DNA of 56,391 nucleotides. Source: Roseateles sp. GTDB lineage: Bacteria > Pseudomonadota > Gammaproteobacteria > Burkholderiales > Burkholderiaceae_C. The notes beneath the pieces were generated by a model. The model was not told the origin of the DNA. It did no database searches and was given only the letters and a program-made list of their open reading frames with translations. Shown here in pieces: positions 8,395 through 32,548 of this stretch; the first letter of the stretch is position 1; each line of letters opens with the position of its first letter. A program made the translations under genes and the position numbers. Location: assembly GCF_019237615.1 (NCBI RefSeq), contig NZ_JAFAGT010000032.1, positions 1 through 56,391 on the forward strand, written 5' to 3'.

Positions 8395-9759
8395 ATGCCC
8401 GCATCCCTGCTTACCGCCACCGACCAGATCGCTCCCGAGGCACTGCATGCCGCCTTCGGCCGGGCCTTCGCCGACTACGTCGCCGGCCCCTTCCAGCTGC
8501 CGCTGGCGCAATGGCCCGGCTTCCTGCGGCGCCAGGGCATAGACCTGGCATTGGGCCGGGCCGTGCTGGACGCGCCGGGCGGTGCGGTGCAGGCCTTCGC
8601 GCTGGTGGCGCCGCGGCCGGGCCTGGCGCGCTGGCGCCTCGCCACCATGGGGGCGCTGCCCGAGGCGCGCGGCAGCGGGGCGGCGGCGCAGCTGCTGCAG
8701 GACTTCGTGGTGCGCGGCCGCGCGGCCGGTCTCGCTGCGATGGAGCTTGAGGTTTTCGCGCAGAACGAGCGCGCCGTGCGGCTGTACCGGCGCCATGGCT
8801 TCGTCGAGCGCCATGTGTTGCAGGGCTGGCAGCGCGTGGCCGAGGCCGGCGGGGCGCAGGCGCCCGCCGCGGCGTTGGCCGTAGGCGCGGACGCCGCGCT
8901 GGCCTGGCTGCGCGAGGCCGAGGCGTGCATCACGGACCTGCCGCTGCAGTTCGGCGCCGACCTCGTCGCCGCGCTGCCGGCGGGCTGGACGGCCTGGCGC
9001 CAGGGCCGCGCGCAACTGGTGTTCAGCGGCGATGCGGAGGCCGGCCTGGTCGTGCGCTCGCTGATCGACCTGGACCCGGCGCAGCACGACGCCGAGGCCT
9101 TGCTGCGCGGGTTGCTGGCGGCCCATCCGGGCGTGCGCGTCAGCGCGCCGGCGCTGCAGCGGCCCGACCTCGGTGGCGCCGCGCTGCGCCGTTGCGGCTT
9201 CGCGCCAGAGGCGCTGCACCAGTTCATCATGCGGCGCGACCTGGCCGGGCCGCTGGTCCGCGACGAGGCGCCGGCCGACCGGCCCGCCGTCGCGGCGCTG
9301 ATCACTGCGGCCTTCCGCGACCACCCTTTCAGCCGGCACGACGAGGCGCGGATCCTGCAGCGGCTGGACGAGCACGGCGCGCTGACGCTGTCGCTCGTGG
9401 CGTGCGATCCGGCCAGCGGCGAACCCATCGCCCACCTGGCGTTCTCGCCGGTGCGCATCGCCGGGCAGGACCTCGGCTGGCTGGGCCTGGGCCCGCTGGC
9501 CGTGCGGCCCGACCGACAGCGCCAGGGCGTGGGTCGGACGCTGGTGGAGGCCGGCCTGGCGCGCCTGCGCGTGGTGGGGGCGGCGGGCTGCGTGCTGCTG
9601 GGCGACCCGGCCTACTATGCGCGCTTCGGCTTCCGCGCCGGGTCCGGCCTGGTGCTGCCCGGCGTGCCGGCCTCGCATTTCCAGGCGCTGCGGCTGGACG
9701 AGGCGCGCGCGCTGCCGGCCGGCACGGTGAGCTACGACGAGGCCTTCGGCGCGGGCTGA
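8395..9759 (+). CDS. Double GNAT acetyltransferase fusion
   Basis: About 454 residues holding two GCN5-related N-acetyltransferase domains. The N-terminal one has ARGSGAAAQLL (acetyl-CoA loop) and ELEVFAQNERAVRLYRRHGF. The C-terminal one has VRPDRQRQGVGRTLV and DPAYYARFGF, very like YhbS. A less conserved region of about 150 residues with ITDLPLQFGADLV lies between them. Substrates are unknown. The start is uncertain: ATG at 8317, GTG at 8362 and ATG at 8395 are all in frame without a good ribosome site; I took 8395 because the domain begins just after. It ends 29 bases from a convergent regulator gene. Confidence 0.75.
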   Translation: MPASLLTATDQIAPEALHAAFGRAFADYVAGPFQLPLAQWPGFLRRQGIDLALGRAVLDAPGGAVQAFALVAPRPGLARWRLATMGALPEARGSGAAAQLLQDFVVRGRAAGLAAMELEVFAQNERAVRLYRRHGFVERHVLQGWQRVAEAGGAQAPAAALAVGADAALAWLREAEACITDLPLQFGADLVAALPAGWTAWRQGRAQLVFSGDAEAGLVVRSLIDLDPAQHDAEALLRGLLAAHPGVRVSAPALQRPDLGGAALRRCGFAPEALHQFIMRRDLAGPLVRDEAPADRPAVAALITAAFRDHPFSRHDEARILQRLDEHGALTLSLVACDPASGEPIAHLAFSPVRIAGQDLGWLGLGPLAVRPDRQRQGVGRTLVEAGLARLRVVGAAGCVLLGDPAYYARFGFRAGSGLVLPGVPASHFQALRLDEARALPAGTVSYDEAFGAG

Positions 9760-9788
9760 GGACGGCGCGATCGCAAGCTGCGGCCGGG

Positions 9789-10427
9789 TCAGTGCTCGTC
9801 GAGGCTGATCATCCCTTCGCGGAGGGCCCATTTCACGAGGCCCGCGATGTCGTTCAGGCCTAGCTTCTTCATCAGCCGGCTGCGGTAGGTGTCCACGGAT
9901 TTGGGGCTGAGGTGCAAGGCCTCGCCGATGGCGCTGCTGGTGGCGCCCTGGGCCACCAGCAGCAGGATCTGGCGCTCGCGCGGCGACAGCGCCTCCCCAT
10001 CCGTGCCGCCGCCCTCGGTCAGCGCGGAGGCGGCGAACTCGGCCGCCTGCGGGCTGAGGAAGCGCCCGCCTGCGGCTACCGTCTCCACCGCCTGCAACAG
10101 CTCGGAGCTGGCCGAACCCTTGAGCAGATAGCCACGGGCACCCAGGCGCAGCGCCTCCGTGACGTGGCGGGGCTGGTCTGACATGGTCAGCACGATGACG
10201 CGCAGCGCCATGCCGCGCTTGTTCAACTCGGCCAGCAGCTCCAGGCCCGAGCGCTGGCCCAGGCGCAGGTCCAGCAGCACGACGTCGGGGTCGAGCCGGC
10301 CGAGGTCGGCCAGCGCCGGCGTGGGGCCGGCGGCCTCGCCGATGACCTCGTGGCCAGCCACTTCCAGCACGACGCGCAGGCCGTCGCGCATGATGGCGTG
10401 GTCATCGATCAGGTAGATGCGGCTCAT
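9789..10427 (-). CDS. NarL/LuxR-type response regulator (orphan)
   Basis: 212 residues: a receiver domain with DD near residue 8-9, phospho-acceptor Asp in VVLLDLRLG, Thr in LTMSDQ and Lys in YLLKG, then a LuxR helix-turn-helix (LSPRERQILLLVAQG, SPKSVDTYRSRLMKKL). It should bind DNA after phosphorylation by a histidine kinase, but no intact kinase is adjacent. Its start overlaps, by ATGA, a short frame that may be the remains of one. The PAS chemoreceptor lies upstream on the same strand, so the two may share signals or transcript. Confidence 0.9.
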   Translation of the reverse strand: MSRIYLIDDHAIMRDGLRVVLEVAGHEVIGEAAGPTPALADLGRLDPDVVLLDLRLGQRSGLELLAELNKRGMALRVIVLTMSDQPRHVTEALRLGARGYLLKGSASSELLQAVETVAAGGRFLSPQAAEFAASALTEGGGTDGEALSPRERQILLLVAQGATSSAIGEALHLSPKSVDTYRSRLMKKLGLNDIAGLVKWALREGMISLDEH

Positions 10428-10639
10428 CGTTGCGGTGGTCCTCCCAGGTCAGGGCCGCGATGGTGCCATGGCCCGGCAAGGCGGCGACGGGCAGGCGCGG
10501 GCATCAGGCGCGCGCGGCCCATGCCGTCCGCCGTCAGCTGCTGCACCTGTATGACGGCGCCGCGCAGCGACGGCTGCAGCCGTGGCGTCAGGTCAGCCGG
10601 GCGGCGGGGGGAGGTAGGTGCACCCTTCGCGCCGCACAC
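10424..10639 (-). pseudogene. Short frame coupled to the regulator; possible kinase remnant
   Basis: A 71-codon frame whose stop overlaps the response-regulator start as ATGA, the usual junction between a sensor kinase and a NarL regulator. The product is not recognisable. In a neighbouring frame the last 25 codons read ALPGHGTIAALTWED, reminiscent of the final strands of a kinase ATPase domain. A frameshifted and deleted kinase tail would explain both. The kinase boxes (H, N, G) are absent. Weak evidence. Confidence 0.25.
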
Positions 10640-10685
10640 CGTCCCGCCAGGCGGGAAGGAGCTCCTGCGGGCGGGCGGGCCGGGC

Positions 10686-12290
10686 TCATGCGGTCACGGC
10701 GGCGCCGCTGTTCAGCCGGAACACCCGCACCGACTGCGTCACCAGCTCGGCGCGGTGGGCCAGCGAGATGGCCGACGCCGACAGCTGCTCGACCAGGGCC
10801 GAGTTCTGCTGCGTGAAGCCGTCGATGCTGGACACGTTGCCGTTGAGCTCGCCGATGCCGCCGCTCTGCTGCTGCACGGCGACGCTGATGCGGCCGATGA
10901 GCTCGTTCATGCGGTCCACCGCGGTCTCGGCCTCCTTGGCCGAGCGCCCGGTGTCGGCCACGATGCGCACGCCCTCCTCGACGCGTGCGCGCGAGTCCTC
11001 GGCCAGCTTCTTGATCTCCTGCGCGGCCTCGCGGGTGCGGCCTGCCAGCATGCGCACCTCGGACGCCACCACCGCGAAGCCGCGGCCCGTCTCGCCCGCC
11101 CGCGCCGCCTCGACGGCCGCGTTCAGCGCCAGGATGTTGGTCTGGAACGAGATGCCGTCGATGACGGCGACGATCTCGTTGATGCGCATCGTCGCCTCGC
11201 GCACGGCGTCCATGCGCTGGCTGGCGGCCACGCTGGTGCTGCCAGTGTGGCGCGCGGCGGCGGCCGTGTCGCGGGCCAGGCTGCTGGCCTGCGAGGCGCC
11301 GTCGGCCGTGTGCTTGACGGTGGCGGCCACCTGTTCCAGCGCCGTGGCGGCCTGCTGCAGGCTGCCGGCCTGCTGCTCGGTGCGCCGGCCCAGGTCTTCG
11401 CCGCCCGCGGCGATCTCGGAGCAGGCCAGGTTGACGCCGTCCACCTCGCGGCGCACGTCGCCGATGACGGCCTGCAGGTTGACCTTGAGCTGGGCCAGCG
11501 CCCGCAACAGTCGGCCCTGGGTGCCGCCGCTGCGGGCCTGCAGGTCTTGCGTCAGGTCGCCCGAGGCCAGGCGTTCGGCGGCCAGCGTCGCCTCGACGAG
11601 GGCGCGGTCGCCGCGCGTGCGCAGCCAGGCCAGCAGCGGCAGCATGGTGAGCGCGGCGCCGCCAAGGGCGGCGACGTCAGGGCGCAGGCCCAGCGCGCCC
11701 ACCGCCGCCATGGCCACGGCGCCAGCCGCCGTGCCTGCGGCCAGCATGGCACCACCCTCCTGCAGCAGCGAGGCGTGGCGGACCAGGCGGCTGCCGATGC
11801 CCGGCCAGCCGGCGCGCTGCAGCGCGCCCTTGTGCAGGCGCGTCGCCAGCCTGGGGGACTTGCCGCCGCCGGCGGCGCGGTATTCCTCGCGCATCCGCGC
11901 GTACAGCGCCTCGGCGCCGCGTACCTCCTCGCGGCCGGGCTTGGTGCGCACCGACATGTAGCCGCAGATGCCGCGGCCGTCGCGCACCGGCGTGACATTG
12001 GCCCGCACCCAGTAGAAATCACCGTTCTTGCGGCGGTTCTTGACCAGGGCCGTCCACGGCTCGCCGTCCTTCAGCGTGGCCCACATGTCGCGGAAGGCCT
12101 CGGCCGGCATGTCCGGGTGGCGGATCAGGTTGTGCGGCTGGCCCAGCAGCTCGTCACGGTCGAAGCCGCTGGCGGCGATGAAGGCCGGGTTGCAGTAGGT
12201 GATACGGCTTTGCAGGTCGGTCGTCGACACCAGGGGCGCGTCGGCACTGATCTCGTACTCCTGCTGGGTCACCGGTCCGTTGTCGCGCAT
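10686..12290 (-). CDS. PAS-domain methyl-accepting chemotaxis protein (Aer-like)
   Basis: 534 residues. An N-terminal PAS domain (about 10-125, with ITYCNPAFIAASGF and KNRRKNGDFYWVRANV) resembles the Aer redox/energy sensor, so the signal may be sensed in the cytoplasm through a cofactor. Two hydrophobic segments near 185-225 anchor it with almost no periplasmic loop. A HAMP-like linker and a long coiled-coil signalling domain follow, with the conserved hairpin tip around EIVAVIDGISFQTNILALN and GRGFAVVASEVR. It would control CheA/CheW. The ATG at 12290 is preceded by a purine-rich GAGGAAAAG. No che genes are in the window. Confidence 0.92.
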   Translation of the reverse strand: MRDNGPVTQQEYEISADAPLVSTTDLQSRITYCNPAFIAASGFDRDELLGQPHNLIRHPDMPAEAFRDMWATLKDGEPWTALVKNRRKNGDFYWVRANVTPVRDGRGICGYMSVRTKPGREEVRGAEALYARMREEYRAAGGGKSPRLATRLHKGALQRAGWPGIGSRLVRHASLLQEGGAMLAAGTAAGAVAMAAVGALGLRPDVAALGGAALTMLPLLAWLRTRGDRALVEATLAAERLASGDLTQDLQARSGGTQGRLLRALAQLKVNLQAVIGDVRREVDGVNLACSEIAAGGEDLGRRTEQQAGSLQQAATALEQVAATVKHTADGASQASSLARDTAAAARHTGSTSVAASQRMDAVREATMRINEIVAVIDGISFQTNILALNAAVEAARAGETGRGFAVVASEVRMLAGRTREAAQEIKKLAEDSRARVEEGVRIVADTGRSAKEAETAVDRMNELIGRISVAVQQQSGGIGELNGNVSSIDGFTQQNSALVEQLSASAISLAHRAELVTQSVRVFRLNSGAAVTA

Positions 12291-27321: not shown

Positions 27322-27597
27322 TCAGCAGACCGCCGGCGCGACGCAGGCGCTGGCGACCTGGGTGCCCGCGTTGCGGCGCCCCTCGATGACGACACGGGGC
27401 AGCTGCGCGACGGCAGGCGCAGGCGTGCGGACGCCTTCGATGACGACGCGATCCAGCTTCACCACCTCGGGCGCCTCGTCCGGGACCGTGAGGGTCATCC
27501 AGGCGGCGCCGGTCAGGGCGGTCAGGGCGACCAGGGCGGTGGCGCTGACGGCATGCAGGCGGGTGGTGCGGGTGGTGGTGGTGCTGATGCGGTTCAT
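27322..27597 (-). CDS. Small membrane-anchored protein with VVIEG repeats
   Basis: 91 residues. A Thr/Arg-rich N terminus is followed by one hydrophobic helix (about 16-34) and a soluble tail containing two similar motifs, LDRVVIEGVR and LPRVVIEGRR, and two Cys near the end. I do not recognise a family. The start is firm: GAGAGGA lies 9 bases before the ATG at 27597. The motif resembles the short VxVxGRR tails of small Burkholderiales proteins of unknown function. It converges on recQ with 1 base between the stops. Confidence 0.72.
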   Translation of the reverse strand: MNRISTTTTRTTRLHAVSATALVALTALTGAAWMTLTVPDEAPEVVKLDRVVIEGVRTPAPAVAQLPRVVIEGRRNAGTQVASACVAPAVC

Positions 27598-27794
27598 GGT
27601 GTTGTCCTCTCTGTGTCTGGGCGCCAGTGTGTGCCGAGGTGGGCGAGAGAACTAAGGGTTTGCGATAGGTTGCTGCTTTTCGCGGATGAAATGCAGCCGG
27701 CGCGGACGAGCATCGTCAAACCTGAGGGTCGTCCCCTGACGCGGCGGTCGGGCGGTGCCGGATACTTTCCCGGTCAAACCAAGGGAGAACAGGC

Positions 27795-30700
27795 ATGGCA
27801 CGTGGCAACGACGTCCAACTCGGCGGCATCACCGACCTGGTGCTGCTGGCAGACATCAAATCAGGCTTCGTCGACGCCCTCGAGGTCGTCACCTATGTGG
27901 ACCGGCTGCGCAAGGTGCTGCGCACGCTCAACGGCCTGCGCCTGGGTTCGCGCGAGTCCAGCTCGCCGGCCTCGCCCTACACCGACATCGTCGCCCGCTG
28001 GCGCATCGTCCATTCCTTCCGCTGGGCCGTCGTCGAGGGCCGGGACGGTACGCCCGACCGCCTGCTGCTGTGCGTCAACTTCGATGGCGGCTGGGAACCC
28101 TATATGCGGGTCATCTGGGACCAGCTCGGTTCCACGCTGGACCTGATGCTGTGCCACACCGAGGGCTACCAGCTCTCGTGCAACTGCAGCTTCGAGACCT
28201 ATTCGCGCTGGGTGCGCGCCCACGAGATCTCGGCTGACTTCCTGTTCATCGAGTCCGGCCGCACGGTGGGCGACGCCGAATACCTGGCGCTGCTGGAGGC
28301 CGCCCAGCGCGGCCATGCCGACGAGCTCAAGGCCGACCGCCTGCGTGCGCCCTCATCGGGCCAGGTCAAGCCCCTGCCTGGCCCGGACCAGCCGGCGGAG
28401 CGCTTCGCGATGGCCGCGCGCGGCCTGGTGCCGCTGGCCGGGCTGTTCACGCTGCAGCGCTTCTTCCGCCCGGGCGCGCCCGACGGCGCCTGCCTGCTGC
28501 GCGCCACGCAGGACGTGCTCTTCGAGCTGACCCAGCTGGGTACGGCCACGCAGTTCCCCAGGCCCGCGCCGGGCACGCCGGCCGTGCAGCTGACGCCCGG
28601 CGAGAGCCTGCGCCTGCGCCACCACGAGATGCTGGCCTGGTTCGAGGCCCAGCTGCCGCCTCCCGCCACGCCGCCCGCCCGGCTGACGCTGGACCGCGGC
28701 CAGCTGCAGGCCGGCATGCTGACCCGGCTGCCCGCCAACCGCGGCGCGCTGCTGCTGCTGCGCATCGAGCAGCCGGCCCGCGCGCTGGCCTGGCTGTCCA
28801 CCGCGCCGGTGCAGGCCGAAGGTGGCAAGGCGGGTACCGACGGCATCTGGCAGCAGCTGGCATTGACAATGGCCGGCCTGAGGGCGCTGGGCGTCCCGGA
28901 GTCGCGCCTGGCGCGCTTCCCGCAGGCCTTCAAGGAGGGCATGGCCACCCGCGCCGGCCTGCTGGGCGACGTGCGCCACAACCACCCCAGCCACTGGGCG
29001 CTGGCGCCGCATGTCAACCAGCGCGATCGCTTCGACCCGGCCGGCGCCCACCTGTTGGTGCAGGTGCGCTTCCACAACCCGAACGGCGGCGAGGCGCTGA
29101 CGGACGACGACCGCGCGCGCATCGCCGCCGCCGGCCGACGGCTGACCGAAGGCACGGGCCTGTCGCTGATGGCCGTCGAACCCATGCGCAGCAACAGCGC
29201 CGACCGCGAGAACTTCGGCTTCAAGGACGGCATCAGCCAGCCCGGCCTGGACCCGGTCGAGCACAGGCACTGGAACGACCAGGTGCCCGAGGGCGAGATC
29301 GTGCAGGGCTTTGCCACTCAGCGCGACAAGGGCTGGCCCGTACCCGAGCAGCCCGACGCGCTGCTGGATTGCGGCAGCTTCCTCGCGGTGCGCAAGCTGC
29401 GCCAGTACACCGGCCGGCTGCACGACTGCATCGAGCATGAGGCCAAGCGCATCAACCTGCCCCGCGAGCTGCTGCTGGCCAAGCTGATGGGCCGCCGCCT
29501 GGATGGCAAGGCGCTGGCCGACGAGAGCACGGACCGCAACGACTTCAACTACGAGCACGACCCGCGCGGCTCGGCCTGCCCCTTCCACGCCCATATCCGC
29601 CGCGCCAACCCGCGCGACCAGGCGCCGGACTCCGCACTCACGGGCCGCATGCCGCGCATCCTGCGCCGCGGCATGAGCTACGGTCCGCCGCCGGACCGCC
29701 TCAACCCCAATGACAAGGACGACCGCGGCCTGGTCTTCATGGCCTACAACGCCCACCTGGCCGAGCAGTTCGAGGTCGTGCAGCGCTGGATGGCCGGCGC
29801 CAACGCCAGTGGCGGCTATTCGGCGCAGAGCGACCCGCTGCTGGGCGTCGTCGACCCCAGCCAGGGCAGGCGCCTCTACCCTTTTGAGCATGCCGGCAAG
29901 CCCTACGAGATCGACCTCGGCAGCCAGCCTTTCGTCACGCTGCAATGGGGTGCCTACTTCTTCGTGCCCTCCATCCCGGCGCTCAAGGCCTTGCCGGCGC
30001 TGGTCGAGCTGCCCCTGCCGTTGCCGGCCCCCACGCCCGTGCCGCTGAGGGCGCCCGCGCCGGACGACTTCGCCGCCTGGCAGCGCTGGCTGGAGGACAC
30101 CAACACCCGCGACCTCGCCTGGGCCTGGGTGCGTGCCCAGCCGGGCGGCGTCGCCCGCACCGCCTACGGCGTGCTGGTGGGCGCGCCGGAGCGGGTCTGC
30201 GACGTGCTGCGCAACCAGTCCGCGCTCTACTCCAACAAGGGCTATGGCGAGCGCATGCGCGACTCCATCGGCGAGGGCTTCCTCGGCATGGACGATGACA
30301 ACGGCCACAAGGAACAGGCGCCCGAGGTCAACAAGGCGCTGGAGCAGGTCAGCGAGGCCGAAGCCTTCCTGGCCGCCTACGCCATCGCCCGCAAGGGGCT
30401 GGCCGACCTGAAGCAGGAGGCCCGCGCGCTGCTGGACGCGTTCCCGGCCGACCAGAAGCCCGACGGCATCCCGACCGACACGCCGCTGGACCTGGAGCGC
30501 CTCAGCGAAGGCGTGCTGGCCGCGCTGTGCCGCCTCTGGTTCGGCATGCCGGACGGCCGGCTGGTCTGGGGCACGGAGCTGCACCCGCCCACACACCCCG
30601 AACCGCCGCGCTGCCCGCGCGCGCTGTTCCAGGTGTCGCGCCATGTCTTCGGTCCGCATCCCAGCGCCTTCGTCAGCGACACCGGCCGCAAGGCCGGCCA

Positions 30701-31325
30701 GGGCTTCCTGGCCGCCACGACGGCCTGGCTGCAGCAGACGCCGCGGGCGCAATGGCCGGCGTTGACCGAGAAGATCGTCAAGGCCGTCGAGGCCGTGCCC
30801 GGCGCGTCGGCGGACCTCCCCGCACGCACGCTGGCCGGCGTCATGCTCGGCTTCCCGCCGACGACGCACGCCAACCTGCTGACCGCGCTGGGCGCCTGGG
30901 TGCAGACGCGCAAGCTGTGGGACCTGCAGCCGGTCTGGCACGAGGTGTCGGAGGCCGTGATCGATGCCCAGCGCTATGTCGAGGCTGTCGCCCGGCTGCG
31001 CCCGACGCTGGTGGCGACGCTGAACCAGCGCCCCACGCCCTTCCAGATCTGGCGCCGTGTGCTGGGCGACCACCGCCTGGGGCTGGTCGACGTGACGGTC
31101 GGCGACACGCTGATCGTCGGCCTGGGCTCGGCCACCCAGCAGGACCCGCTGCGCCACCATGTCGCCTTCGGCGGCGACCGCGCCGACCCGGCCGGCCCGC
31201 CGCCGCATGCCTGTCCGGGCTACGGCATGGGCATGGGCGTCATGCTGGGCGTCGCCGCGGCGGTGCTGGACGCCGGCGTGATGCGCTTCACTGGGGCGCC
31301 GACGGTGGTGGCGCTGGCGCTCTAG
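27795..31325 (+). CDS. DyP-type peroxidase fused to cytochrome P450-like domain
   Basis: 1176 residues, three parts. Residues 1-190 form an alpha/beta region (LLLCVNFDGGWEPYMRVIW) I cannot name. Residues about 210-735 are a dye-decolorising heme peroxidase with GFKDG at 475-479 (catalytic Asp478), HIRRANPR with proximal His600, and ILRRGMSYGP. Residues about 750-1176 look like a cytochrome P450: an I-helix-like LAGVMLGFPPTT near 1013, VGDTLIVGLGSATQQDP before the heme loop, and HACPGYGMG with ligand Cys1140. The helix-K ExxR is altered (Glu1063, Arg1067), and extra residues separate FGG from the Cys loop. No signal peptide. AAGGGAGAA precedes the ATG. It stands alone with no ferredoxin or reductase gene nearby, so the P450 part may run on peroxide; that is inference. 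Confidence 0.82.
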   Translation: MARGNDVQLGGITDLVLLADIKSGFVDALEVVTYVDRLRKVLRTLNGLRLGSRESSSPASPYTDIVARWRIVHSFRWAVVEGRDGTPDRLLLCVNFDGGWEPYMRVIWDQLGSTLDLMLCHTEGYQLSCNCSFETYSRWVRAHEISADFLFIESGRTVGDAEYLALLEAAQRGHADELKADRLRAPSSGQVKPLPGPDQPAERFAMAARGLVPLAGLFTLQRFFRPGAPDGACLLRATQDVLFELTQLGTATQFPRPAPGTPAVQLTPGESLRLRHHEMLAWFEAQLPPPATPPARLTLDRGQLQAGMLTRLPANRGALLLLRIEQPARALAWLSTAPVQAEGGKAGTDGIWQQLALTMAGLRALGVPESRLARFPQAFKEGMATRAGLLGDVRHNHPSHWALAPHVNQRDRFDPAGAHLLVQVRFHNPNGGEALTDDDRARIAAAGRRLTEGTGLSLMAVEPMRSNSADRENFGFKDGISQPGLDPVEHRHWNDQVPEGEIVQGFATQRDKGWPVPEQPDALLDCGSFLAVRKLRQYTGRLHDCIEHEAKRINLPRELLLAKLMGRRLDGKALADESTDRNDFNYEHDPRGSACPFHAHIRRANPRDQAPDSALTGRMPRILRRGMSYGPPPDRLNPNDKDDRGLVFMAYNAHLAEQFEVVQRWMAGANASGGYSAQSDPLLGVVDPSQGRRLYPFEHAGKPYEIDLGSQPFVTLQWGAYFFVPSIPALKALPALVELPLPLPAPTPVPLRAPAPDDFAAWQRWLEDTNTRDLAWAWVRAQPGGVARTAYGVLVGAPERVCDVLRNQSALYSNKGYGERMRDSIGEGFLGMDDDNGHKEQAPEVNKALEQVSEAEAFLAAYAIARKGLADLKQEARALLDAFPADQKPDGIPTDTPLDLERLSEGVLAALCRLWFGMPDGRLVWGTELHPPTHPEPPRCPRALFQVSRHVFGPHPSAFVSDTGRKAGQGFLAATTAWLQQTPRAQWPALTEKIVKAVEAVPGASADLPARTLAGVMLGFPPTTHANLLTALGAWVQTRKLWDLQPVWHEVSEAVIDAQRYVEAVARLRPTLVATLNQRPTPFQIWRRVLGDHRLGLVDVTVGDTLIVGLGSATQQDPLRHHVAFGGDRADPAGPPPHACPGYGMGMGVMLGVAAAVLDAGVMRFTGAPTVVALAL

Positions 31326-31359
31326 CTGTGACGGGTCGAGAGGTTCTTTCGTGACCGCG

Positions 31360-31640
31360 GGATTCGGACATAGGCGGTAGGCAGCCGATGCCATGGTGCG
31401 GCGGGTGCCCGTGTAGAAGCAGTTCCACGCGGGCACGGCCATGCGGGCTCATCCGACGAGGCGCAGGGACGACCGTAGCAAGCCCGCTCACAGCGCGCCG
31501 GCTGGAGTCACGGAACGGCTGTGAATGGAAGGCGGGCCCGTAGTCCGTGATCAGGCGCTGGAGCATCAGGCCCAGCCCGGCACGATCAGGCAAGGGCAGC
31601 GCGCAGGAAGGTCTCGGCACCGTCCTTGCGCTTGCCGGGG
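31360..31640 (-). pseudogene. Decayed transposase (DDE integrase core, IS481-like)
   Basis: Within the 353-base gap after the DyP-P450 gene, scattered minus-strand pieces match an integrase-core transposase: AETFLRAAL near 31610, RLITDYGPAFHS near 31535 (the usual TDNG around the second catalytic Asp, with N changed to Y), and PPHHGIGCLPPMS near 31390, like the C-terminal RPHxxLGxxPP of IS481/IS3 transposases. They lie in different frames with stops between them and no 5' half, so the element is dead. I saw no terminal repeats. Confidence 0.5.
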
Positions 31641-31678: not shown

Positions 31679-32548
31679 CTAGTCCCGCGAGGGCCCCGTC
31701 TCCGGCGCCAGCGGGGCGAACACGAAGCGCATGCCGCGCGTGTAGCTCTCGGCCTTGGTGCCCGCATGGCGCTCGCCGTCGATGCCGCGGTACTCGTACA
31801 CCAGTTCCGGATGCTTCAGCTCCGGCAGCAGCGCCTGGTAGCGCTTGATGCCCGCAAGGAAGGCGGGCCATTCGCTCTCCGCACCGGTCACGTAGAGCCT
31901 GGCCTTGATGGGCTTGCCTGTGGCGGCATAGGCCTTGGCCCGGCCGATGATCCAGTCACCGCCGACGACGACCGCCGGGCTGGCGGCGATATAGCCCTTG
32001 AACAGCTCGGGCCTGGCATACATCGCGTGCAGCGCGAACAGGCCGCCCAGCGAGCTGCCGGCCAGGTAACGCTGGGCCGGATCGCCGCGGTAGTCGCGCT
32101 CCACCAGCGGAAAGATGTCCTTCTCCAGCGCGGCGATGAACCTGTCGGCATTGCCGGTGCTGGCGGACAGCGGGTTCATGCGCACCGGCGACAGCTCCCA
32201 GTTGCGCAGTAGGCCGTAGTCCGGGTTGTCGCCGACATAGCCCAGGCCCACGGTGATGAACTCGGGCACGACCTTGTCGTAGGCCAGGTTGTTGTAGGAG
32301 CTGACGACGGTCGGGAAGTCCCAATAGCCGTCGGTCACGTAGAGCACCGGATAGCGGCGCGTGGGCTCCTTGGCGAAGGAGGCCGGCAGGTGGACGTGCA
32401 GCTGGTAGCTGCGGCCGTCGGCGTTCCTGGCCAGGGCGCGCAGCTGGGTGTCGGGGAGGGTGTGCGGCGGAAAGGCCGGTGCTGGGTCGGCGGCATGCGC
32501 CTGGAGCGCGGTGAACAGGAAGGCGAGGGTCAGGGCGAATCGCTTCAT
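31679..32548 (-). CDS. Exported esterase (PF00756/Fes-like fold)
   Basis: 289 residues with a signal peptide (MKRFALTLAFLFTALQAHA). The fold shows YPVLYVTDGYWD, the nucleophile elbow GSSLGG and a late GERHAGTKAESY with the likely catalytic His. Relatives include feruloyl esterases, siderophore esterases (IroE/Fes) and antigen-85-like proteins; the substrate cannot be decided here, and no siderophore genes are nearby. The ATG at 32548 starts the signal peptide. It is transcribed divergently from the methyltransferase gene, with 63 bases between start codons. Confidence 0.83.
   Translation of the reverse strand: MKRFALTLAFLFTALQAHAADPAPAFPPHTLPDTQLRALARNADGRSYQLHVHLPASFAKEPTRRYPVLYVTDGYWDFPTVVSSYNNLAYDKVVPEFITVGLGYVGDNPDYGLLRNWELSPVRMNPLSASTGNADRFIAALEKDIFPLVERDYRGDPAQRYLAGSSLGGLFALHAMYARPELFKGYIAASPAVVVGGDWIIGRAKAYAATGKPIKARLYVTGAESEWPAFLAGIKRYQALLPELKHPELVYEYRGIDGERHAGTKAESYTRGMRFVFAPLAPETGPSRD

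Follow-up and report, generated by a model that had tools for sequence, protein, structure and literature searches.

A bacterial polypeptide joining a DyP peroxidase to a P450-fold domain, and its possible link to cyclase signalling

The window analysed here, a 56,391-nucleotide contig (NZ_JAFAGT010000032.1) from Roseateles sp., a soil and water bacterium, carries at 27795-31325 (+) a gene for a single polypeptide of 1176 amino acids in which, on the evidence of alignments and structural models, a complete DyP peroxidase domain is joined to an N-terminal domain (NTD) and to a C-terminal P450-fold domain with an invariant cysteine. A reading made from the letters alone, the original prediction, had picked out in this one frame the DyP motifs GFKDG (residues 475-479) and His600 (in HIRRANPR) and, 540 residues further on, the P450-like Cys1140 (in HACPGYGMG), and all of these held. 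We tentatively propose that the protein is a cytoplasmic three-domain enzyme that uses two hemes and peroxide to oxidise a substrate derived from lipid, in connection with signalling by a cyclase, a reading that we regard as possible rather than probable.

Domains of the fusion protein

The open reading frame runs uninterrupted for 1176 codons from its ATG, and a GGGAG seven bases 5' of the ATG (27783-27787, +) is a possible ribosome-binding site. The length of the frame alone does not prove a gene, because an antisense open frame of 1029 codons (28353-31442, −) spans most of it, probably as a by-product of the 94% GC at third codon positions (the GC fractions at positions 1, 2 and 3 of the fusion gene are 0.74, 0.49 and 0.94). 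It is the conservation across genomes that marks the frame as coding: the fusion is present in 20/20 genomes of the genus, our own included, as a full-length single frame in 17 and cut by contig ends in three. This conservation also ruled out a chance frame or an assembly chimera. Inspection of the N-terminus gave no signal peptide, so the protein is probably located in the cytoplasm. The chain is laid out as NTD (residues 1-185; 27795-28349, +), a connecting region delimited by the alignment of relatives (186-299; 28350-28691, +), DyP domain (~300-745; 28692-30029, +) and P450-fold domain (758-1176; 30066-31322, +).

The identity of the DyP domain is secure, as had been predicted. It scores 26.7 bits with Pfam PF20628 (Dyp_perox_C), above the cut-off of 20, and matches NCBIfam TIGR01413 with an E-value of 2.6e-27 and 96 bits, slightly below the cut-off of 100.5. 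DyPs in the PDB (8re3, 7anv, 4g2c) match at E 1e-40 to 1e-21, the best being 8re3 (1.1e-40); they have the fold region and the catalytic residues in common with the window domain but are stand-alone enzymes. The GXXDG motif, here GFKDG (29217-29231, +), contains the catalytic Asp478, which is Asp in 30/31 rows and Glu in one; His600 (29592-29594, +) is found in 31/31 rows and Arg624-Arg625 (29664-29669, +) in 31/31 and 30/31 rows, respectively. From family knowledge we take His600 to be the proximal heme ligand and Arg624/625 the distal Arg region. Because these residues are conserved, the domain is expected to be a functional peroxidase.

For the C-terminal domain, an alignment of 65 rows was assembled from the window protein, 63 relatives (fusions or pieces cut by contig ends) and a lone gene from Vineibacter. 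An AlphaFold model built from these rows reached a mean pLDDT of 95.3 and a pTM of 0.93, and a Foldseek search of the PDB returned 1618 matches at E≤0.001. All of the 50 matches listed are P450s, two of them (TxtE and RufO) being presumed so and the others so named in their titles, with a best E-value of 4.8e-9, query TM-scores of 0.49-0.66 and identities of 12-18%. The moderate TM values indicate a divergent P450. Profile matches to P450s in the PDB are weak (E-values of 0.0015 and 0.035 for alignments of 31 and 65 rows, respectively). At E≤1 neither the window protein nor any of 31 family members scanned matches Pfam p450 (PF00067), whereas the three P450s scanned from permuted or unfused relatives described below do match it (E 3e-10, 5e-8 and 2e-6). 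Thus the model and the Foldseek matches bear out the P450 fold foreseen for this part of the chain, though Pfam is silent.

The P450 motifs themselves are only partly as predicted. Cys1140, the presumed thiolate ligand, closes the heme loop FGG...HAC (1125-1140; 31167-31214, +) in 65/65 rows and is followed by an invariant Gly1142 (CxG). The I-helix reads GFPPTT (1019-1024; 30849-30866, +), with Thr1023 kept in 62/65 rows but Pro1022 replacing the usual acid in 63/65. The ExxR motif of the K-helix is lost, its site being ATLN in the window protein (1074-1077; 31014-31025, +); a plain pattern search flagged nine of the 65 rows, and mapping onto the K-helix columns left one with Glu and Arg together. 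By comparison, all nine permuted or unfused P450s compared keep ExxR. It is from the loss of both ExxR and the acid-alcohol pair that we infer peroxide or hydroperoxide chemistry for this unit. In addition, the spacing from Phe to Cys is 13-17 residues in 62/65 rows (13, 14, 15, 16 and 17 in 4, 15, 25, 17 and 1 rows, respectively) compared with seven in canonical loops. MAFFT aligned Phe1125 of the fusion with the Phe that canonical P450s carry further upstream, in the meander; we prefer FGG as the heme-loop Phe-Gly because all 65 rows have this pair and because one permuted fusion (L142), whose P450 does not have the meander stretch, shows a near-equal distance from the end of its SA(T/M) strand to FGTG. 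If so, the loop would be 6-10 residues longer than canonical in 62/65 rows, a reading that depends on the choice of alignment.

The third, N-terminal domain that had been suspected is supported by its model and by separate genes elsewhere. Across 52 rows it shows 18 invariant columns, and it is modelled (pLDDT 77.4) with the topology beta-alpha-beta-beta-alpha. A profile search of the PDB gave no matches and Pfam none above chance. The best Foldseek match had an E-value of 0.11, so that none reached 0.001, and the leading weak likenesses include folds of the dimeric ferredoxin-like and ABM types. In four genomes (L144-L147) relatives of the NTD are genes of their own upstream of DyP genes, and an NTD-type gene was also recognised by eye in Methylorubrum (L152). 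By its model, then, the NTD is a ferredoxin-like domain associated with DyP, and it matches no Pfam family.

Spread and domain order

The spread of the fusion, proposed earlier as a check, was followed at several depths. Among 100 relatives it is found in the 20 genomes of the genus and as five full-length cases in the 80 others, and in the family in 26 of 299 genomes, two of these in two pieces; phylum-wide, among 299 genomes, the architecture occurs in the window's own genome and in one other (G462). A collection of 74 loci, mostly from Burkholderiales, was gathered with two short peptide patterns and therefore misses copies that do not contain them; some loci are near-duplicates (L105/L107). 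In 66 of the 74 the NTD, DyP and P450-like domains lie in one frame (the P450 end being cut off in L077), and of the other eight, five are cut by contig ends (L053, L061, L096, L122, L124), L095 has a frame break, in L099 the NTD is split off, and L112 holds the P450-like gene alone. The latter, from Vineibacter terrae, is a 460-residue frame (9734-11113, +) adjoining a cyclase gene, with no DyP or NTD match inside its 21-kb locus. Two loci, L053 and L119, come from metagenome-assembled genomes titled Methylotenera sp. and Bordetella parapertussis; the former copy is 83% identical to that of the window and the latter is the sister row to that of Ideonella alba in the DyP tree, and the titles are probably binning or naming errors.

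A second type of fusion has the order P450-middle region-NTD-DyP in a single frame of 1410-1533 amino acids (L142, L143, L150, L151), with two further cases (L154, L155) recognised from their alignment and from the share of the query that they cover. In Pararhizobium, Novosphingobium and Sulfitobacter, plasmid-borne genes align with 88-99% of a permuted protein, and the names that annotation pipelines give to permuted relatives are 'cytochrome P450' and 'Dyp-type peroxidase domain-containing protein'. By eye, the middle region between P450 and NTD contains hydrophobic, membrane-like stretches in L143 and L142, and a possible second NTD-like copy lies between P450 and NTD in L143 and L151 (E 2.2 and 14, not significant). 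The parts also occur as separate adjoining genes in L148, with weak NTD matches, and in Skermanella (L153), with an NTD seen by eye. In an unrooted tree of 55 DyP domains, based on the DyP parts only, the 33 window-type rows lie beyond one branch with 100/100 support and include no permuted row, while the six permuted rows need two changes on the other side. These data suggest that the NTD, DyP and P450 parts were probably joined at least twice in bacteria, and this union in differing order is the best evidence that the parts work together.

In the unfused cousin on the mobilizable plasmid pMPPM03 of Methylorubrum populi (L152, 4818-10791), genes for a ferredoxin, an FAD oxidoreductase, a canonical P450, a catalase-family protein, an NTD-type protein and a DyP stand in a row. 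This row speaks for an alternative in which the P450 unit would be a normal, reductase-fed monooxygenase supplied by ferredoxins encoded elsewhere, with the DyP clearing the H2O2 from uncoupled turnover, and the ExxR retained by the nine permuted or unfused P450s agrees with this. On the window side, however, the I-helix acid has become Pro in 63/65 rows and ExxR is lost in 64/65, and, as a weaker point, no ferredoxin or reductase was recognised by eye among the 22 unannotated neighbour families listed; a scan for ferredoxin motifs with a lax pattern gave 47 matches and was uninformative. We consider the reductase-fed explanation doubtful, although it is the strongest of the alternatives.

Partners of the fusion and its possible function

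The most constant partner is a protein of ~1000 amino acids with Guanylate_cyc, AAA_16 and TPR matches (Pfam, three proteins scanned), which we take to be built like the soluble adenylyl cyclase of animals. Its gene is present in 68 of the 74 loci, that is 67 with a measured distance and L122; 50 of the 67 have it within 300 bp of the fusion and seven at 300-1500 bp, and three further loci are too short to show it. It lies on the opposite strand in 65/68 loci, the exceptions being L088, L090 and L124, where both genes share a strand, and upstream of the fusion in L099. The Asp positions that presumably bind the metal do not vary among 12 aligned cyclase rows, so the cyclase may be catalytically active. 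The 299 genomes of the family were surveyed for fusion and cyclase separately and are taken as the same set since their handles agree; the cyclase is present in 30, namely in 26/26 genomes with the fusion and 4/273 without it (Fisher p 1.5e-33, uncorrected for the kinship of the genomes). The threshold for the cyclase, E<1e-200, was set once a gap had been noticed in the list (6.9e-262 to 5.4e-112). The permuted fusion of Pararhizobium also has a cyclase-TPR gene directly upstream.

The cyclase is similar to PycC in PADLOC (best E 6.4e-16), and an anti-phage or cell-death module resembling Pycsar or CBASS was considered, in which the cyclase-ATPase would sense in the manner of STAND proteins, and phospholipase and oxidative enzymes would be the effectors; CBASS includes effectors related to patatin. 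A match of this kind may come from any class III cyclase, though, and it is the only one among six proteins scanned: in PADLOC the two types of fusion and single examples of the patatin, the SGNH-like protein and the NTD protein had no match at E≤0.01, and a generic cyclase domain falls short of a CBASS or Pycsar core. Since the fusion is in 20/20 genomes of the genus, unlike patchy defence islands, and the opposite strand of the cyclase argues against an operon, a defence role appears most improbable.

The constancy of the cyclase would also fit a redox or heme sensor, in which the P450-like domain is a non-catalytic heme-thiolate unit for sensing or docking that reports the peroxide seen by the DyP to the cyclase. 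The conservon-linked CYP157 P450s have a signalling role. They do not have ExxR, and their genetic linkage to conservons is described in passages of PMC3599690; the loss of ExxR and the lone Vineibacter gene, which still adjoins a cyclase, point the same way. Against a pure sensor stand the many residues besides Cys1140 that are conserved across deep divergence and the hydrolase partners described next, which suggest a substrate, and we regard it as rather unlikely.

An SGNH-like hydrolase occurs in 14 of the 74 loci, either fused to the C-terminus (eight loci: L103, L106, L111, L116, L117, L119, L120, L123; also in G462) or as a neighbouring gene (six: L095, L097, L099, L101, L102, L115); a weaker, distant match in L058 was left out of this count. 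In nine other loci (L085, L086, L088, L090, L098, L105, L107, L110, L114) a gene for a patatin-type phospholipase lies directly upstream, the three proteins scanned matching Pfam Patatin at E 7e-10 to 5e-8, and the two hydrolases never share one of the 74 loci. Esterases of the carbohydrate and feruloyl types are found within the SGNH fold, and DyPs are known for the oxidation of lignin and dyes, so that an enzyme of this kind with an accessory P450 was weighed as well; a protein with no signal peptide by inspection, probably cytoplasmic and linked to a cyclase of cytoplasmic type, makes this very unlikely. On the side towards RecQ, a small open frame of 91 amino acids (27322-27597, −) lies between RecQ and the fusion gene; it has a membrane- or signal-like N-terminus and an RVVIEG motif repeated twice, with no Pfam match above cut-off.

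We therefore return to the peroxide-driven enzyme proposed at the outset. In this scheme the DyP and P450-like domains would both bind heme, the NTD may dimerise or dock onto the DyP barrel, and the DyP would act on H2O2 or an organic (lipid) hydroperoxide. The P450 domain would use peroxide or hydroperoxide without O2 and reductase, in the manner of a peroxygenase or isomerase, and an oxidised intermediate or peroxide would move between the two hemes, much as the original prediction had suggested. The substrate would probably be an acyl or lipid compound, freed in part of the family by the SGNH-like or patatin hydrolase, and the product or the redox state would be linked to signalling through the cyclase-ATPase-TPR protein. 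In its most extended form, which we consider unlikely, the system would be a bacterial counterpart of eicosanoid and oxylipin signalling: a hydrolase frees the lipid, the DyP-P450 protein oxidises it with peroxide and the cyclase reads the product or redox state into a cyclic nucleotide, the peroxidase-P450 union being independent of the fungal one and probably made twice in bacteria.

Several observations weigh against the proposed enzyme. The linkage to the cyclase is incomplete: among the 67 loci with a measured distance, 10 have the cyclase 1.8-7 kb from the fusion, in three other loci (L060, L068, L071) it was not found despite at least 3 kb of room, and in the window's own genome it is on another contig, though 92% identical to the one adjoining the fusion of the nearest relative. 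The four genomes with a cyclase and no fusion had no P450-like match in a search that had no positive control, and there the cyclase neighbours are a phosphofructokinase; a sugar transporter and an amidohydrolase; nothing recognised; and a contig end (G176). The lipid side is also uncertain. The SGNH calls come from GDSW, GGND and LHP motifs seen by eye and a home-made profile; of six such proteins scanned with Pfam, GDSL was below cut-off for L103, L097 and L058 (E 0.005, 0.0003 and 0.001) and unmatched in L101, L115 and L120. Neither of the two queries found a patatin or an SGNH hydrolase in the window or around the fusions of its near relatives (L051-L076), apart from the distant L058 match. 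A PF00756 esterase gene (31679-32548, −), convergent with the fusion gene, was set aside as a partner because its signal-like N-terminus makes it likely exported and unrelated. DyPs are not known as lipid enzymes. Finally, the ferredoxin and reductase beside the canonical P450 of Methylorubrum make electron-fed chemistry possible, and the long heme loop hangs on the alignment chosen.

Comparison with known systems

No report of a DyP-P450 fusion was found in open full-text PMC papers, as judged by the titles and abstract openings among the matches listed and by passages of PMC8230527, PMC4420034 and PMC5919972. Peroxidase-P450 unions are known from fungi and oomycetes with another type of peroxidase. 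That a DyP-based one was apparently made at least twice in bacteria, in differing order, argues that the coupling of peroxidase and P450 hemes has a selectable purpose. It would offer a natural two-heme, possibly reductase-free oxidation catalyst, it gives the DyPs a testable set of partners (P450, acyl hydrolase and cyclase), where little is known of what these peroxidases do in the cell, and it points to an unstudied bacterial pathway from oxidation to cyclic nucleotides in genera, such as Roseateles and Variovorax, that are harmless and tractable.

With other enzymes the likenesses are partial. The CYP74 clan (AOS, HPL, DES, EAS) needs neither O2 nor redox partners and has nine extra residues in the heme-binding domain and an altered I-helix region, according to the passages of PMC10813956. 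The I-helix region of the window P450 is altered too, though it retains Thr1023, and its heme loop would recall the extra residues if the preferred alignment is right. CYP157 of Streptomyces indicates that ExxR is not absolute, although, according to PMC3599690, it keeps the Glu, has Trp for Arg and is not fused to a peroxidase. In Pseudomonas aeruginosa, 10S-DOX and 7,10-DS (FadCcp), enzymes of the peroxidase family, carry out a two-step oxygenation of fatty acids (PMC4496055), but they are di-heme c-type peroxidases and two separate proteins.

The closest analogues are the fungal dioxygenase (DOX)-P450 fusions (Ppo, linoleate diol synthases, 8/9-AOS; CYP6001-6005). PMC13049297, PMC5919972 and PMC4420034 describe these and the oomycete CYP5619 as joining a P450 to a peroxidase type other than DyP; CYP5619 is eukaryotic and has the domain order opposite to that of the window fusion, and the text of PMC5919972 contains neither DyP nor dye-decolorizing as terms. 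Like the window protein, the fungal fusions carry a heme peroxidase-type domain on the N-terminal side of a P450 in one polypeptide; their P450 is self-sufficient, they use hydroperoxides (PMC13049297) and the HxC heme motif is H(Q/A)C in 8-AOS (same source) and HAC in the window protein. The differences are equally clear: DyP belongs to the peroxidase-chlorite dismutase superfamily and the fungal DOX part to the peroxidase-cyclooxygenase superfamily, as given in passages of PMC4420034, so that the window peroxidase is not of the fungal N-domain type, and the window protein is bacterial, has an extra NTD, SGNH-like and cyclase partners in its family, and has lost ExxR. The likeness to Ppo-type fusions drawn in the original prediction thus holds in outline, and on our best reading the two systems are analogous, not homologous.

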